Source: an uncultured Caryophanales bacterium (GTDB lineage Bacteria; Bacillota_I; Bacilli_A; RF39; UBA660). Taken from it: DNA of 64,000 bases. Location: positions 1 through 64,000 of the forward strand of contig CANOYR010000006.1 in assembly GCA_947571655.1 (NCBI GenBank). The letters are read 5' to 3'. Positions within the stretch are counted from its first letter, which is position 1, and each line of letters begins with the position of its first letter. The notes under the pieces were generated by a model. That model was not told the origin of the DNA. It made no database searches and was given only the letters and a program-made list of their open reading frames with translations. The translations under genes were made by a program, and so were the position numbers. This document shows, in pieces, positions 1,847 to 35,251 of this stretch.

Positions 1847-1886
1847 ATAAAAAAGCGATCTTTCTTCCATAAGGACGAAAAATCGC
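1847..1886 (-). terminator. Rho-independent terminator of the T-box leader
   Basis: Read on the minus strand, the arm GCGATTTTTCGTCC pairs with GGAAGAAAGATCGC around a TTAT loop and is followed by TTTTTTATT. Its 5' arm overlaps the T-box core, as required for the mutually exclusive antiterminator. Confidence 0.9.
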
Positions 1887-2078
1887 GGTACCACCTTAAT
1901 TGATAAATATATTATTTATCCACTTGAATTCCTTAACGCGGAAATTTCGTATAAACCTACTGTATCGATTTATCTGTTCTGGAACCATCTGTCATAGTCT
2001 TTCTATATCTCTTTCACCAAACGAGACTCTCTTTGATAGTAATCGTATAACTCTTTCCTTCAAAACATTTGCGAATTT
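1882..2078 (-). promoter_or_regulatory. T-box riboswitch leader (tRNA-sensing antitermination)
   Basis: The minus-strand transcript contains the T-box core AAGGTGGTACCGCG (1884-1897), whose GGT-ACC context binds an uncharged tRNA acceptor end. Upstream are other Stem I hallmarks: an AGAGA bulge, a terminal loop with TTTGGTG, and a lower helix that can close with GGAA/TTCC. In the specifier loop I pair CTAT with ATAG above and GTTAT with ATGAC below. This leaves AAAGACT, so the specifier would be ACT (threonine), with ATG (methionine) directly next to it. The assignment is therefore uncertain. Genes behind it are the interrupted small gene, dut and metG; methionine would fit metG, but this is inference. 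Confidence 0.88.
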
Positions 2079-8163: not shown

Positions 8164-8189
8164 AAAATTATTTCCCGGGAAATAATTTT
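8164..8189. promoter_or_regulatory. Noc-binding site 1 (NBS)
   Basis: A perfect 26-bp palindrome whose centre contains TATTTCCCGGGAAATA, the known Noc target core. It lies right behind rsmI and touches its stop codon. Three further copies of the same core occur in the window. Confidence 0.88.
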
Positions 8190-14989: not shown

Positions 14990-15003
14990 ATCTATCACAT
15001 CCA

Positions 15004-15083
15004 TAAAAAAAGTGCACATAAATATAAAATGTTAAGGCTGCTACCTTCCAGTCCTGACCTGATTCCATTCATATTTATTGCAC
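15004..15083 (-). ncRNA. ffs: Signal recognition particle RNA, small 4.5S-like type
   Basis: The minus strand holds the conserved SRP domain IV apex: GGTCAGGACTGGAAGGTAGC (20 bases), containing the GGAA tetraloop and the asymmetric loop that binds Ffh. It is enclosed by long complementary arms that start GTGCAATAAATATGAATG and end with TATTTATGTGCAC, followed by a T-run terminator (15004-15010). The size of roughly 72 bases plus tail indicates the short form without an Alu domain, unlike the long Bacillus scRNA. It lies just ahead of tadA. Confidence 0.93.
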
Positions 15084-15138
15084 GTATATATTTTATTACA
15101 AAATCAGTAAAAAAAGCAAGAAAAAAAAGTTTTTTTTA

Positions 15139-15154
15139 TGTTTCACGTGAAACA
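15139..15154. promoter_or_regulatory. parS site 1
   Basis: TGTTTCACGTGAAACA is identical to the 16-bp parS consensus bound by ParB/Spo0J. It lies in the 560-base gene-free segment between the SRP RNA gene and gyrA, about 10 kb from the origin. The parB gene is on the right arm at 34.4 kb. Confidence 0.97.
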
Positions 15155-15195
15155 TATAGACAATATAAAATAATTTATAAAAGATAAATAAAAAT

Positions 15196-15215
15196 CATGT
15201 TTCACGTGAAACATG
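15196..15215. promoter_or_regulatory. parS site 2
   Basis: A perfect 20-bp palindrome, CATGTTTCACGTGAAACATG, containing the exact 16-bp parS core at 15198-15213. Its centre is 59 bp from that of parS site 1. Confidence 0.97.
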
Positions 15216-15283
15216 AAGAAATAAGTACTTTATTAAATTTTAGAATTAAGCATAATAAAATAATTAATATTTTTTCTGTGAAT

Positions 15284-15305
15284 AATTATTTCCCGGGAAA
15301 TAATT
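15284..15305. promoter_or_regulatory. Noc-binding site 2 (NBS)
   Basis: A perfect 22-bp palindrome with the core TATTTCCCGGGAAATA, 71 bp past parS site 2 in the same gene-free segment. Confidence 0.9.
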
Positions 15306-15573
15306 TGTTATTCTTTTTTTGTTTTCCATGTTCATAACTTTTTATATTTAAAAATATTGTGTTTTTTTAGTACCTTTTCATAAGTTCTTGAACATCTTTA
15401 TAAGATTTATGATATTTTAGTTTTGAATAATATTTTCGTAAACTATTATAATTTATTATATTTTCGCATTCAAAATAGTAAATAAGTAGTAAAAATTGAT
15501 TTAAATTTTATTATATATACTATAAATAAAATTTTTGTATAAAAACCAAAAATTTTTATACAAAAAATGTGGA

Positions 15574-15597
15574 AAATTATTTCCCGGGAAATAATTT
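15574..15597. promoter_or_regulatory. Noc-binding site 3 (NBS)
   Basis: A perfect 24-bp palindrome with the same core, located just behind the gyrA terminator. It closes the parS/NBS segment on the gyrA side. Confidence 0.9.
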
Positions 15598-15601
15598 GTT
15601 G

Positions 15602-15638
15602 AAAAAAAACAATATTTTTTTTAAATATTGTTTTTTTT
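15602..15638 (-). terminator. gyrA terminator
   Basis: On the minus strand AAAACAATATTT and AAATATTGTTTT pair around an A-run, with long T-runs on the exit side. It lies 12 bases after the gyrA stop. Confidence 0.75.
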
Positions 15639-15649
15639 CTTTATAATAA

Positions 15650-18256
15650 TTAATCATTAACTAAATTATTTTCTTCCAAATTCTCATCATTTTCACTTAT
15701 AATAGTTGCCACAGTTGCTACTCTTTGACTATCTTTTAATTTAATTAATCGAACACCTTGAGTTGCTCTACCTAAAGTAGAAATTTGATCCATCGACATT
15801 CTCATAATAATTCCACTATCAGTAATAATTACCAAATCTTCCTCACCAGTAACTGCCTTTAATGATACTAACATTCCATTTTTCTCAGTAACATTTAAAG
15901 CCTTTACACCTTTACTTCCACGGTGAGTTAATCGATAATGTTGAATTGGTGTCTTCTTGCCATAACCCTTTTCTGTAACAATTAATACTTGTTCATTATC
16001 ACTAATAACTTCTCCACCAATAACTTCAGAACCATTTAATTCGATTCCCTTAACTCCAGAAGCAGTACGACCCATCACACGAATTTCATTTTCCACAAAT
16101 CGTACCATACGACCATTAGAGGCACCGATAATGATTTCATTTTCACCAGTTGTTTTACGAACAGAAATTAATTCATCATCCTCTTTCAGCGTAATTGCTA
16201 TCTTTCCACCACTTCGAATATTATCAAATTCACTTAAATTTGTACGCTTAACTATACCATTTTTCGTAATAAAAGTTAAATATTTATAATTTTCATCTTT
16301 ATTCAAACAAACGATCGAATTAATGTTCTCATTTTTATCCACAGGTAATAAATTAATAATTGGCAATCCTTTACTCTGTCTACTATACTCTGGAACTTCA
16401 TATCCCTTCATTCGATATACCTTACCCTTATTACTAAAAAATAAGATATAATCATGAGTTTGCATATTTAACATTTTTTCCACAAAATCTTCTTCGTTCG
16501 TAGCCATTCCTTTAATTCCTACGCCACCTCTATTTTGAGTACGGTAAGTATCAACTAACATTCTCTTAATATAACCTCTATTTGTAAGTGTTATTAAAAT
16601 ATTTTCAACAGGAATCAAAGATTCATCCTCAATATAATCAATTGCGGTCATATCAATCTTCGTACGACGATCATCACTATACTTTTTCTTAATTTCTAGC
16701 ATTTCCTCTTTAATAATGTCTAATACTCGTTGTTCAGAAGCTAAAATCGCCCTATAATCAGCAATCTTAATAAGTAAATCATTTAATTCATTTTCAACCT
16801 TACCACGTTCTAAACCAGTCAAACGACGCAATCTCATCTCAAGAATACTATTCGCTTGAACTTCATCAAGCTCAAATCGAGACATTAAATTTGCTCTTGC
16901 CTCTTCATCACTATCAGCAGCACGAATAATACGTACCACTTCATCAATATTATCCAAAGCAATCCGTAAACCTTCTAAAATATGTACTCTTTCTTCAGCT
17001 TTCGTTAAATCATATCTTGTTCTACGAATAATTACTTCTTTTTGATGATCCACATATTTACTAATAATGTCCTTTAATCCTAAAGTACGAGGTGTTTGAC
17101 CATCCAATACTAAGAAAATAATTCCATAATTTGTTTGAAAATTAGTATGTTTATATAAATTATTCAATACAACTTGAGCATTTGCATCCTTCTTTAAAGT
17201 AATGGTTATCTTCACACCATCTTTTAAATCTGTATGATAATCCGAAATTCCTTCGATTACTTTATTATGAACAAGTTCTGCAACCTTATTCTTAAGTTCC
17301 ATCGTATTTACACCATAAGGAACTTCAGTAATTACAATATTACTATGATTTCCTACCTCTTCAATCACTGCTTTACTACGAATTGTAATACTTCCTCTAC
17401 CAGTTTCAAAAGCTTTCTTAATTCCTGAATTTCCTAAAATAATACCTCCAGTAGGAAAATCTGGACCCTTAATATATTCCATCAATCCCATCGTATCAAT
17501 ATCTGGATTATCAATATATGCAATACAACCATCAATTACTTCTCCCAAATTATGAGGAGGAATATTCGTAGCCATACCAACTGCTATTCCCATAGATCCA
17601 TTTACTAAAACATTAGGAAATCTAGATGGTAATACCTTTGGTTCCTTCATTGTAACATCAAAGTTATCATCCATATCAACGGTATTCTTATTAATATCTC
17701 TCAATAATTCCAAAGAAATCTTCGCAAGTCTAGATTCGGTATAACGCATTGCTGCAGCTCCATCACCTTCAATATTTCCGAAGTTTCCATGTCCGTCAAC
17801 AAGCATATATCTTTGATTAAAATCTTGAGCTAAACGTACCATTGCCTCATAAATAGAAGAATCTCCATGTGGATGATAATGACCCATCACATATCCAACA
17901 GTTGTCGCACATTTTCTATGAGGTTTATCAGGAGTATATCCAGATTCAAACATAGACCATAAAATACGTCTATGAACTGGCTTTAAACCATCCCTTAAAT
18001 CAGGTAATGCACGAGAAGCGATAACACTCATAGAATATTCCATAAACGAAGTTTTTACTTCATCTACAATATTATTATGATCTAATCGATCTCTTTCATG
18101 AAAATAACCACTAAAACCATTATTACTGCTTTCTAAATTCTTACTTGCTAGAGTAGTATTTCCACTATCTTCTGTTTCATCCGAATCATTGGGCACAAGA
18201 TCTTCCATTTCTGCTCTATTTAATAATTCATCTAAATCATCTCTATTATTATCCAT
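15650..18256 (-). CDS. gyrA: DNA gyrase subunit A
   Basis: The breakage-reunion subunit of gyrase, introducing negative supercoils with GyrB. The 868 residues contain the winged-helix/tower domain with catalytic Tyr near 172 (AAMRYTESR), the quinolone region HPHGDSSIYEAMVR and six C-terminal pinwheel repeats. A GyrA-box-like QNRGGVG supports gyrase rather than topoisomerase IV. The N-terminus is about 50 residues longer than in Bacillus and is Asp/Glu/Ser/Asn-rich. The start ATG with AGGGTGGTGA upstream supports that extension. It follows gyrB by 14 bases. Confidence 0.97.
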   Translation of the reverse strand: MDNNRDDLDELLNRAEMEDLVPNDSDETEDSGNTTLASKNLESSNNGFSGYFHERDRLDHNNIVDEVKTSFMEYSMSVIASRALPDLRDGLKPVHRRILWSMFESGYTPDKPHRKCATTVGYVMGHYHPHGDSSIYEAMVRLAQDFNQRYMLVDGHGNFGNIEGDGAAAMRYTESRLAKISLELLRDINKNTVDMDDNFDVTMKEPKVLPSRFPNVLVNGSMGIAVGMATNIPPHNLGEVIDGCIAYIDNPDIDTMGLMEYIKGPDFPTGGIILGNSGIKKAFETGRGSITIRSKAVIEEVGNHSNIVITEVPYGVNTMELKNKVAELVHNKVIEGISDYHTDLKDGVKITITLKKDANAQVVLNNLYKHTNFQTNYGIIFLVLDGQTPRTLGLKDIISKYVDHQKEVIIRRTRYDLTKAEERVHILEGLRIALDNIDEVVRIIRAADSDEEARANLMSRFELDEVQANSILEMRLRRLTGLERGKVENELNDLLIKIADYRAILASEQRVLDIIKEEMLEIKKKYSDDRRTKIDMTAIDYIEDESLIPVENILITLTNRGYIKRMLVDTYRTQNRGGVGIKGMATNEEDFVEKMLNMQTHDYILFFSNKGKVYRMKGYEVPEYSRQSKGLPIINLLPVDKNENINSIVCLNKDENYKYLTFITKNGIVKRTNLSEFDNIRSGGKIAITLKEDDELISVRKTTGENEIIIGASNGRMVRFVENEIRVMGRTASGVKGIELNGSEVIGGEVISDNEQVLIVTEKGYGKKTPIQHYRLTHRGSKGVKALNVTEKNGMLVSLKAVTGEEDLVIITDSGIIMRMSMDQISTLGRATQGVRLIKLKDSQRVATVATIISENDENLEENNLVND

Positions 18257-24678: not shown

Positions 24679-24730
24679 ATACCGCGCCCCCTTGAAAACG
24701 TAAATTGCAAGATTTATTGTAACTTAAAAC

Positions 24731-24917
24731 TGTGGAAAAAGAAAGCATAAAAATTTAAAAAAAAATTATACACAATCAATTCACAAGTTATAAACAATAT
24801 TATCCACAATCTATATCTTTAATATATATATATATTAGGAATTTATCAACAATTTTAATAAAAATTTAATCCTCAAAGTGAAAAAAATTATAAACAAGTT
24901 GTGCAAACTGTGGAAAA
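24731..24917. other. oriC: Replication origin region (oriC) with DnaA-box cluster
   Basis: The gap between dnaA and rpmH holds one perfect DnaA box, TTATCCACA (24800-24808). Near-matches are TTATACACA (24766), TTATAAACA (24788 and 24888), TTATCAACA (24843) and the inverted variant TGTGGAAAA (24731 and 24909). An alternating TA run at about 24823-24836 is a candidate unwinding element. Gene strand bias flips here: genes to the left are mostly minus, to the right mostly plus. The conserved dnaA/rpmH flanks fit the standard Bacillota origin. Confidence 0.88.
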
Positions 24918-24984
24918 TAATGAAAAAAGAATGGAAATAAATTCAACTAAGTAAAAAATATAAAAAAGAAATTAACCAAAATCA

Positions 24985-25013
24985 TTGACAAAATATGGTA
25001 GGTTTATTATAAT
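24985..25013 (+). promoter_or_regulatory. Strong sigma-A promoter of rpmH
   Basis: Perfect TTGACA (24985-24990) and perfect TATAAT (25008-25013) with a 17-base spacer, ending 32 bases ahead of the rpmH start. Confidence 0.93.
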
Positions 25014-25045
25014 AATGTAGATTTTATGTCTGGAGGTGGAGAAAT

Positions 25046-25168
25046 ATGAAAAGAACTTATCAACCAAATAATCGAAAAAAGAAAAAGAAACACGGTTTTT
25101 TTGCACGTATGAAATCAAAGGTTTTAAATAGACGTAGGGCAAAAGGTCGTAAAAGACTATCCAAATAA
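25046..25168 (+). CDS. rpmH: Large ribosomal subunit protein bL34
   Basis: A tiny basic ribosomal protein of 40 residues, start [18 protein letters not shown] and end [12 protein letters not shown]. The usual length is 44; the loop between FARM and VLNRRR lacks about four residues of the common T-K-N-G-R stretch. GGAGGTGGAG lies seven bases before the ATG. A consensus promoter and a strong terminator directly flank it, so it is expressed mainly on its own, ahead of rnpA. Confidence 0.97.
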
Positions 25169-25171
25169 TAG

Positions 25172-25194
25172 ACCACTGTAAACAGTGGTTTTTA
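25172..25194 (+). terminator. rpmH terminator or attenuator before rnpA
   Basis: ACCACTG pairs with CAGTGGT around TAAA and is followed by TTTT. It probably lowers read-through from the strong rpmH promoter into rnpA. Confidence 0.85.
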
Positions 25195-25225
25195 AATACA
25201 ATAATAATAGAATAGGGTGTGTCTT

Positions 25226-29538: not shown

Positions 29539-29564
29539 AAAATTATTTCCCGGGAAATAATTTT
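29539..29564. promoter_or_regulatory. Noc-binding site 4 (NBS)
   Basis: A perfect 26-bp palindrome with the core TATTTCCCGGGAAATA between mnmE and mnmG, about 22 bases ahead of the mnmG promoter. It is the only copy seen on the right arm in this window. Confidence 0.9.
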
Positions 29565-32423: not shown

Positions 32424-33479
32424 ATGGATAGAGAAGTAGTAGATTTATATTTAGATGACATTATCCCTAACCGTTTCCAACCACGTGAAGTGTTTAATGA
32501 GCAAGCCTTGAAAGAATTATCAGATTCCATTAAAGCACATGGAGTCATTCAACCAATCATTGTTCGTAAAATTGGAGATAAATATGAAATTATCGCAGGA
32601 GAAAGAAGATATAAAGCATCTGCAATGGCGGGATTAACTAAAATACCAGCAATTATTAGAAATTTAGATGACAAAGAAACTTCAAAAGTAGCACTTTTAG
32701 AAAATCTTCAAAGAAAAGATTTGACTCCAATAGAAGAAGCGAGAACTTATCAGAAAATTATTGAACTTGATGATATGACACAAGAGGAATTGGGAAAAAC
32801 GATGGGAAAAAGTCAAGCCTCGATTGCAAATAAAATGCGTCTATTATCTTTACCAGATGAAGTTCAAGAGGCATTATTAGAAGATCGAATTTCAGAAAGA
32901 CATGCAAGAAGTTTATTAAATTTAAAAAATCCTGAAGAACAAATTGCAATGTTACAAGAAATTATAGATAAGAGAATGACTGTTAGAGAATTAGATGCAA
33001 GAATTAAAGGAGAAAATCCACAAAAATATATTCCAGATCCATCCACCAATATTAATAATTCAATACCTATTGGGCCAAGTAATATAGGAATTGATGATAA
33101 TTCCCCATTATCAGAGTCAATTCCAACCATCGATTTAACACCAAATCCAAGAATCGACTTTAACAATTTACCAGAAGATACTAATAGAACAAGACCAAAT
33201 ATTCCAATAGGAAACATGGTGAATGAGCTCGATCCTCAAAGTGTTATCGATTTAAGACCAAAATTACCAACAGAATCCAATCGAGGAGAAATCTTTCCAA
33301 AACGTCCAACGATTGAAGAATTATTGGGGGATGAAGAGTTATTCTCTTTAAGAGATGCTGTATCTTCCATTAGAAAAAGTGTAGAATCAGTACGTAATAA
33401 AGGATTTATAATTAAAGTAGAAGAAATGGATTTTGAAAAAACCTATCAAATTGTTGTAAAAATTGATAAAGATATCTAA
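32424..33479 (+). CDS. noc: Nucleoid occlusion protein Noc (ParB paralogue) without the N-terminal membrane helix
   Basis: Noc binds NBS DNA and blocks septum assembly over the nucleoid. The 351-residue protein has a ParB/Noc CTP-binding domain (IIAGERRYKAS near 56-66; ENLQR near 93-97). The helix-turn-helix GKSQASIANKMRLL has Q131 and K137, and R159 falls in SERHAR; these are Noc-type specificity residues. Noc-like C-terminal segment SLRDAVSSIRKSVESV follows. It begins directly at the CTP domain: a stop codon 30 bases upstream in frame excludes an N-terminal amphipathic helix. Residues about 196-305 form a Pro/Asn/Ile-rich linker absent from Bacillus Noc (about 283 residues). AGAGGG precedes the ATG; the position rsmG-noc-soj-parB is canonical. 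Confidence 0.9.
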   Translation: MDREVVDLYLDDIIPNRFQPREVFNEQALKELSDSIKAHGVIQPIIVRKIGDKYEIIAGERRYKASAMAGLTKIPAIIRNLDDKETSKVALLENLQRKDLTPIEEARTYQKIIELDDMTQEELGKTMGKSQASIANKMRLLSLPDEVQEALLEDRISERHARSLLNLKNPEEQIAMLQEIIDKRMTVRELDARIKGENPQKYIPDPSTNINNSIPIGPSNIGIDDNSPLSESIPTIDLTPNPRIDFNNLPEDTNRTRPNIPIGNMVNELDPQSVIDLRPKLPTESNRGEIFPKRPTIEELLGDEELFSLRDAVSSIRKSVESVRNKGFIIKVEEMDFEKTYQIVVKIDKDI

Positions 33480-33582: not shown

Positions 33583-34383
33583 ATGGGAAAGATAATTTCA
33601 TTAGTAAATCAAAAAGGTGGAGTAGGAAAAACAACGACAAGTATTAATCTTTCTGCATCTTTAGCACATTTAGGAAAAAGAGTATTATTGATTGATTTAG
33701 ATCCACAGGGAAATGCAACAACCGGAGTTGGAATCAATAAAGGAGATATTACAAAAAGTGTACATGATGTGATGACAGGAAAATGTACAGGGCAAGAAGC
33801 AATTATTCGCACAAAATTTAAAAATTTATATCTTCTTCCTGCAACAATTAATTTAGCAGGAGTAGATATTGAATTAATGGAAATGAGTAAAACAGATCAT
33901 GAATTTTCTAAAAATACTCAATTAAAACAGGGATTAGATCCAATCAAAGATGTTTTTGATTTCATTATTATTGATTGCCCTCCATCACTAGGGTTAATAA
34001 CAACCAATGCACTAACTGCATCAAATTCAGTAATTATTCCTGTACAATGCGAATTTTTCGCATTAGAGGGAATCACACAATTATTAAACACCATTATGCT
34101 GGCACAGAAAAACTTAAATCCAAATTTAGATATTGAAGGAGTCCTCTTAACAATGCTTGATTCAAGAGCAATTTTATGTTTAGAAGTAGTAGAAGACATT
34201 CGGCGTTTCTTTAAAGAAAGAGTATACAATACAATTATTCCAAGATTAGTCCGAATTGCTGAAGCACCATCTCATGGAACTCCAATTATAGAATATGATC
34301 CAAAGCATCGCGGAACAATAGCATATTTAAATTTAGCGAAGGAAGTGATTGAAAGAAATGGAAACACAAAGAGAGAACAATAG
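33583..34383 (+). CDS. parA: Chromosome partitioning ATPase ParA (Soj)
   Basis: A deviant-Walker ATPase that works with ParB/Spo0J in origin segregation and regulates DnaA. The 266-residue protein has the signature NQKGGVGKTTTSINLSASL (residues 8-26), LIDLDPQGNATTGVG near 38-52 and IIIDCPPSLGLITTNAL near 126-142. RBS AAAGGTGG precedes the ATG. Its end overlaps the start of parB, as usual for this pair. Confidence 0.97.
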   Translation: MGKIISLVNQKGGVGKTTTSINLSASLAHLGKRVLLIDLDPQGNATTGVGINKGDITKSVHDVMTGKCTGQEAIIRTKFKNLYLLPATINLAGVDIELMEMSKTDHEFSKNTQLKQGLDPIKDVFDFIIIDCPPSLGLITTNALTASNSVIIPVQCEFFALEGITQLLNTIMLAQKNLNPNLDIEGVLLTMLDSRAILCLEVVEDIRRFFKERVYNTIIPRLVRIAEAPSHGTPIIEYDPKHRGTIAYLNLAKEVIERNGNTKREQ

Positions 34384-35251
34384 AAGAAAGGCACTTGGAA
34401 GAGGATTAGAAGAATTATTTAATAATGAACCAATTAGCTATGAAACTATCGAAGAAAGAATTATTGATACAACTCCAAGAGAAGAAATCAAAGAAATTCC
34501 AATTTCAGAGTTAAGAAGTAATCCATATCAACCTAGAAAAAACTTTGATGAACAAGCATTACAGGAATTAGCTAGCTCTATTAAAGAACATGGAGTATTT
34601 CAGCCAATTATTGCGAAAAAAAGCATTAAAGGATATGAAATTATCGCAGGAGAACGTCGTGTAAAGGCATCTGAACTTGCTGGAAAAAACACCGTTCCTG
34701 CCATTATTCGAGATTTTAGTGATTCAGAAATGATGGAAATTGCTCTTTTAGAAAATCTACAAAGAGAAGACCTAAATGCAGTAGAAGAGGCAATTGCCTA
34801 TCGCAAACTAATCGAAGAGCTCTCAATCACTCAAGAAGAACTTGCCAAAAGGTTAGGAAAAAGTAGGAGTCATATCACCAATATGTTAGGAATATTAAGT
34901 CTACCAGAAGAAGTGAAAGATATGATTATGGACGAAAAAATTACAATGAGTCATGCGAGAGTTTTAAGTAAAATGAAAGATACAGATAAAATCAAAGAAC
35001 TCGCACAAAGAATTGCTATGGAAAACTTAAGTGTAAGACAAGTTGAAAACATATCAATTGACAGTCTATACGAAAAAAAGAAAAAAATTAAGAGACGTGA
35101 AAATCCAGTAAACGAATATCAAATAATAGAAGAAGAATTAGCGGAAAAATTAGGAACAAAAGTAAAAATTAAAAATAATAAAGTAGAGATTTCATTTGTT
35201 AATAACAACGATTTAAATCGATTATTAGAAATGATTGGCTATAAAAATTAG
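34358..35251 (+). CDS. parB: Chromosome partitioning protein ParB (Spo0J)
   Basis: A CTP-dependent clamp that loads at parS and spreads, recruiting SMC. The 297-residue protein has the N-terminal Soj-activating motif ALGRGLEELF, the CTP domain (NPYQPRK, IIAGERRVKA, ENLQRED) and the helix-turn-helix LGKSRSHITNMLGIL. The Arg in GKSR is the parS-type specificity residue, in contrast to Gln in the window's Noc. A C-terminal dimerisation domain ends the protein. ATG 34358 is used; TTG 34349 three codons earlier is equally possible given AAGGAAGTGA upstream. Two exact parS sites lie at 15.1-15.2 kb. Confidence 0.96.
   Translation: METQRENNRRKALGRGLEELFNNEPISYETIEERIIDTTPREEIKEIPISELRSNPYQPRKNFDEQALQELASSIKEHGVFQPIIAKKSIKGYEIIAGERRVKASELAGKNTVPAIIRDFSDSEMMEIALLENLQREDLNAVEEAIAYRKLIEELSITQEELAKRLGKSRSHITNMLGILSLPEEVKDMIMDEKITMSHARVLSKMKDTDKIKELAQRIAMENLSVRQVENISIDSLYEKKKKIKRRENPVNEYQIIEEELAEKLGTKVKIKNNKVEISFVNNNDLNRLLEMIGYKN

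Follow-up and report, generated by a model that had tools for sequence, protein, structure and literature searches.

Two parS palindromes and two Noc-binding sites (NBS), all exact, share one gene-free gap between the SRP RNA gene and gyrA in the origin region of an uncultured Caryophanales bacterium known from metagenomes only, and their pairing is conserved across the family, which suggests, with a probability of about 0.5, that the segment may be a composite origin-domain centromere co-loaded with ParB and a soluble Noc and possibly coupled to DnaA. ParB is a clamp of chromosome segregation, and Noc is a related clamp known elsewhere as a guard of cell division. A joint ParB/Noc centre is the simplest account of the mixing of the sites, their confinement to the origin and the loss of the membrane helix from Noc. 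The initial annotation, which had posed as alternatives competition between the two clamps, mutual blocking of their sliding and a joint centre, missed the helix-less Noc, the near-confinement of NBS to the origin and the DnaA boxes abutting the array NBS; on its question, the conserved pairing favours a shared centre and leaves room for competition or blocking.

Sites in the origin region and in the genome

The stretch of DNA analysed, 64,000 nucleotides in length and here called the window, is the origin region, with the order mfd-pth-rsmI...holB-recR-dnaX-tadA-SRP-[array]-gyrA-gyrB-recF-dnaN-dnaA, continued beyond dnaA by yidC-jag-...-mnmE-mnmG-rsmG-noc-parA-parB (Table 1). The array lies on one side of the probable oriC, about 9.5 kb from it. 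Two exact parS and two exact NBS are present in the SRP RNA-gyrA gap, just as had been noted from the sequence at the outset, and the gap is indeed devoid of a gene, its 556 bp (G+C 16.5% versus 29% for the window) holding no ORF of at least 60 aa. Within the window, no parS comes closer to an NBS than 73 bp, measured between their edges. Judged from the four NBS of the window (8169, 15287, 15578 and 29544) and 181 family contexts, the NBS is a longer palindrome, about AAATTATTTCCCGGGAAATAATTT, compared with the 16-bp core of the Noc papers.

Table 1. Coordinates of the array, the origin and associated genes in the window
Feature	Position	Strand	Remarks
T-box leader	1868-2072	-	RF00230, 111 bits
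Distal NBS	8169..8184		Between rsmI-like gene and pth; position common to 13/17 genus genomes
Small SRP RNA	14996..15093	-	Left border of the array; Rfam RF00169
Gene-free segment with array	15094..15649		Left border SRP RNA, right border gyrA stop
parS palindrome 1	15139..15154		Exact TGTTTCACGTGAAACA
parS palindrome 2	15198..15213		Exact TGTTTCACGTGAAACA
DnaA-box consensus	15277..15285	-	TGTGAATAA (TTATTCACA); ends 1 nt before NBS 1; geometry recurs in relatives
NBS 1	15287..15302		Exact TATTTCCCGGGAAATA, within longer palindrome AATTATTTCCCGGGAAATAATT; flank consensus
DnaA-box consensus	15568..15576	-	TGTGGAAAA (TTTTCCACA); ends one base before NBS 2
NBS 2	15578..15593		Exact TATTTCCCGGGAAATA
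gyrA	15650..18256	-	Right border of the array; Pfam
dnaA	23293..24678	-	
Probable oriC	24679-25217		AT-rich region upstream of dnaA; several DnaA boxes
Distal NBS	29544..29559		Between mnmE and mnmG, other side of oriC; position conserved
noc (351 aa)	32424..33479	+	CTP-binding domain, NBS-type DNA-binding domain, C-terminal helix and hairpin
parA (soj)	33583..34383	+	Between noc and parB
parB (spo0J)	34349..35251	+	N-terminal LGRGLEELF motif; likely start ATG 34358

A genome-wide search had been proposed as a check, and in the 1.32-Mb draft genome (31 contigs, about 94% complete) it placed all parS and all exact NBS inside the window, with no further parS at zero to one mismatch elsewhere in the draft. 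The four exact NBS lie within about 17 kb of oriC and include two distal sites that the initial annotation did not contain, 7 kb and 14 kb from the array; one NBS with a single mismatch occurs elsewhere, on contig C9. Base composition predicts about 0.0004 copies per genome for each 16-mer, and as an empirical null, exact NBS were found in 7 of 7 genomes belonging to the window's family versus 1 of 238 from the rest of the phylum; on both measures chance occurrence of the sites was ruled out.

The same confinement is seen in 17 congeneric genomes, in which all 72 exact NBS (0-8 per genome) lie within about 20 kb of oriC, a count of exact sites beyond which degenerate ones may exist. These 72 sites bracket oriC and occupy the gyrA-tadA gap, pth/rsmI, mnmE/mnmG, jag/mnmE or the interior of dnaX, and no other place in these genomes; those at contig ends adjoin the genes that define these positions. 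Chromosome-wide spread, a trait of the Noc/NBS system with about 70 NBS over most of the B. subtilis chromosome (PMC4331003) and 41 in S. aureus, of which nearly all lie no further than +/-700 kb from the origin (PMC5540599), was seen neither in the genome of the window nor in the 17 congeners. Dispersed NBS are represented here by these two species from the literature since the related families scanned have too few recognisable sites, the other Noc-bearing families of the class showing 0-3 per genome with a 14-mer pattern.

In other genera, an exact NBS also occurs within apparent rsmI coding sequence, where it supplies codons for ISREI(S/T)KK(Y/F)EE (L191:17890, L192:21052, L197:17015, L199:19170, L204:19038, L205:20384, L210:18987, L215:18542, L216:19067, L107:13155 and L109:7404). 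As this position is conserved across genera, selection is likely to act on the DNA as well as on the protein.

Pairing of parS and NBS in relatives

The sample comprised 81 loci, the window and 80 others chosen by GyrA similarity alone and not by sites, and counts were taken from the 70 loci in which 900 bp or more of sequence follow gyrA. In the first 2.2 kb downstream of this gene, at up to one mismatch, parS is present in 62, NBS in 46 and both in 45 of the 70; for exact sites only, the corresponding fractions are 55/70, 40/70 and 36/70. The density of parS is 5-34 per 10 kb just downstream of gyrA versus 0-0.4 in all other bins. The two sites share the gap across the genus and most other family genera sampled, often as alternating tandem arrays, so that the scattering of independent sites which the initial annotation had named as contrary evidence was not what the relatives displayed. 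NBS at up to one mismatch are absent from the array in about a third of the relatives selected by GyrA, most of which do have parS, and joint loading is therefore not obligatory. Two genomes (G014, G034) showed no sites in the blocks read and also no gyrA-SRP junction, and were not counted as counter-examples. Since drafts often break at the gyrA-SRP array (G002, G013, G017, G019, G020, G022, G028, G031), the true numbers of both sites are probably higher than those counted. In some relatives (L086, L107, L110, L121, L308 and others), parS half-sites with TGTTCCACGTG are used; the C variant is present in 26% of parS half-sites.

Spacing within the arrays is fixed by lineage, at 27-29, 45-46 or 48/70 bp, and differs between lineages; offsets of 27-29 bp recur in G001, G015 and G016, G011 has a repeat unit of 129 bp, and in L201 an NBS-parS unit of 118 bp is repeated. 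The mean of the median NBS-parS distances, 61 bp, is smaller than the 86 bp obtained by random placement in the same segments and lies below all 2000 permutations, and a minimum spacing of at most 50 bp, present in 27 arrays with 21 expected (maximum 31), is not clearly above permutation. Of 53 family genomes, 11 contain the strict pattern parS-N{0,30}-NBS, versus none of 342 others of the class. Helical phasing was considered and rejected, as the peaks at about 28, 48 and 69 bp resemble two-turn steps but the per-locus Rayleigh p values are about 0.15-0.3 at 10.5 bp.

Within each genome the arrays clearly consist of amplified units, and tandem amplification inflates the counts of sites and DnaA boxes alike. 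This amplification would lend itself to an origin of the clusters by chance or by neutral tandem duplication within a long gap between genes, a reading that is nevertheless disfavoured by conservation and can hardly be credited: the pairing occurs in many genera with different spacers, the 16-mers stay intact in a drifting AT-rich background, and NBS are retained inside coding sequence. Quite improbable is also a boundary role, by which Noc clamps or Noc-NBS complexes would be roadblocks keeping ParB off gyrA, dnaX and oriC. NBS do adjoin parS and, as single sites, occur further out on both flanks, and roadblock tests of ParB spreading are among the experiments reported in PMC7053999, but NBS alternate with parS within the arrays and are not restricted to the array edges.

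Anatomy of ParB and Noc

The ParB of the window carries the parS-type specificity residue R173 (GKSR). Judged by its sequence, the noc gene product is a true Noc, with Geobacillus and B. subtilis Noc as best solved and structural matches (7nfu/7ol9-type fold) and a score of 293.5 for NCBIfam TIGR04285, just below the cut-off of 315; the Noc clade of the family is nested within Noc and separate from ParB (100/100 support). It retains the CTP-domain motifs (clamp residues), and the NBS-reading residues Q131, K137 and R159 (equivalent to Q173, K179 and R201) are invariant in 24 proteins. The K184 equivalent is S in the window Noc and S/T/A/N in relatives. According to the work that defined the specificity positions (PMC7383237), which describes Noc as confined to Firmicutes, a lysine at either position 179 or position 184 is enough.

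What the protein does not possess is the N-terminal amphipathic membrane-targeting helix. It aligns from residue 27 of 7nfu, starting about 12 residues before the motif IIPNRFQPR; the N-terminal 23 residues of Geobacillus Noc are missing from Noc of the window's family, and the N-terminus in the genus reads MD(R/K/S)EVV(D/E)LYLDDIIPNRFQPR. The segment is missing in all family members with a clear start, those of a few relatives being ambiguous, and in other families of the class the N-terminus is retained, with sequences such as MGLFDFLG or MNIFSGN. Between the DNA-binding domain and the C-terminal helix and hairpin extends a disordered, variable linker of about 100 residues, which reaches several hundred in relatives, as in the Noc proteins of 612-716 aa of L259, L260 and L257 (G018, G022 and G019). 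Noc of two other families in the class is apparently also devoid of the helix (L270, L273 and L271 in G042, G053 and G057), and 0-3 recognisable NBS cores were found in the two of these genomes that were scanned; by sequence, the helix may have been lost more than once in the class.

With no N-terminal membrane helix, Noc here is not expected to be a standard nucleoid-occlusion protein, as deletion of the N-terminal 10 residues abolishes the function of B. subtilis Noc (PMC4331003). Conventional nucleoid occlusion with minimal sites, in which Noc would block division over the origin through another contact, for instance by the linker, is an unlikely reading. It would be in keeping with Noc orthology and the conserved NBS recognition; a second membrane or division contact could be hidden in the long linker, and sites near the origin would still label that part of the nucleoid, but a set restricted to this region would leave the nucleoid uncovered. 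Because the protein has neither the membrane helix nor the N-terminal motif of ParB, it is probably a soluble accessory clamp of the partition/origin complex and not a membrane-tied division inhibitor.

DnaA boxes, proposed mechanism and known systems

At both array NBS of the window, a DnaA-box consensus directly precedes the site, and the 9-mer of the 15568 box is also present in three copies around dnaA (23203, 24731, 24909); the DnaA boxes of the probable oriC include TTATCCACA, TTATACACA and TGTGGAAAA. In eight genomes, the window included, a DnaA box is located at -10 to -12 from NBS, always in one orientation, with 19 flanks at -10/-11. Variation of these boxes falls mainly on degenerate consensus positions, with some copies in G016 breaking the consensus (TTGGG...). 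Overall, the arrays contain 62 DnaA boxes versus 17.3+/-4.1 expected, at 26 loci versus 14.5 (first-order shuffles). In several relatives, the box lies 0-5 nt from parS, whereas the window boxes abut NBS instead; in L177:12496 and L179:12487, a parS within the 3' end of gyrA has a perfect DnaA box TTATCCACA directly adjacent. No DnaA box accompanies the distal NBS at 8169 and 29544, and box-free arrays of NBS or parS are found in many genera. The boxes abutting NBS or parS suggest that clamp loading could be coupled to DnaA, a link treated as suggestive because tandem copying inflates the box counts.

These boxes, with their single orientation next to NBS, would also suit a control of replication initiation, in which origin-proximal Noc mainly restrains DnaA and the proximity of parS reflects a shared origin region only. 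Noc of S. aureus limits initiation (PMC5540599), and NBS lie on both sides of dnaA, but the box-free distal NBS and the arrays of many genera without boxes speak against it, and the alternation of NBS and parS in fixed units is left unexplained, so that we regard this reading as rather doubtful.

For the composite centromere, we infer from the sites and the protein anatomy that ParB would load at parS and Noc at the neighbouring NBS, two CTP-dependent sliding clamps being placed on the same few hundred bp, from which they might spread together over the gyrA-SRP-dnaX region and serve segregation. The additional NBS on either side of oriC would let Noc bracket the whole origin domain, and the DnaA boxes abutting NBS, or parS in relatives, would couple clamp loading to DnaA and hence to replication initiation. 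Tentatively, and with the odds against so full a scheme, Noc may have given up nucleoid occlusion and now serve as a second, soluble clamp of the centromere, with parS, NBS and DnaA boxes as one element in which DnaA would gate the loading of ParB and Noc and thereby tie origin segregation to initiation.

Noc is regarded as a duplicate of ParB that acquired a DNA site of its own, a membrane helix and scattered binding sites. Noc of this family keeps the new site but, by anatomy and site map, would sit back at the centromere and off the membrane. The family is a natural setting in which to ask if sliding CTP clamps of two kinds, when loaded only a few helical turns from one another, assist, exclude or slip past one another, and if a role of Noc in replication control is possible without nucleoid occlusion; the parts are small enough for transfer into laboratory B. 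subtilis or reconstitution in vitro. No published description of joint parS/NBS arrays was found in a search outside of which most subscription journals lay, which is weak evidence of novelty.

Among known systems, the ParABS centromere is matched by exact 16-bp parS only near oriC, a parA-parB operon and a ParB with the specificity R and the LGRGL motif, the difference being that parS is concentrated in one gyrA-SRP RNA array, in which NBS are interspersed. The Noc/NBS systems of B. subtilis and S. aureus share with the present one the 16-bp site and an ortholog with invariant Q, K and R and CTP-domain motifs; here, however, the N-terminal amphipathic helix is absent, the disordered linker is long and variable, and the 0-8 exact NBS per genus genome all lie near oriC, intermingled with parS. 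The DnaA boxes beside the ParB-loading region recall Caulobacter, where such boxes enable DnaA to set off partition (reviewed in PMC6399470); boxes adjoin parS in several relatives, whereas in the window they abut NBS, and Noc is present as a second clamp system.
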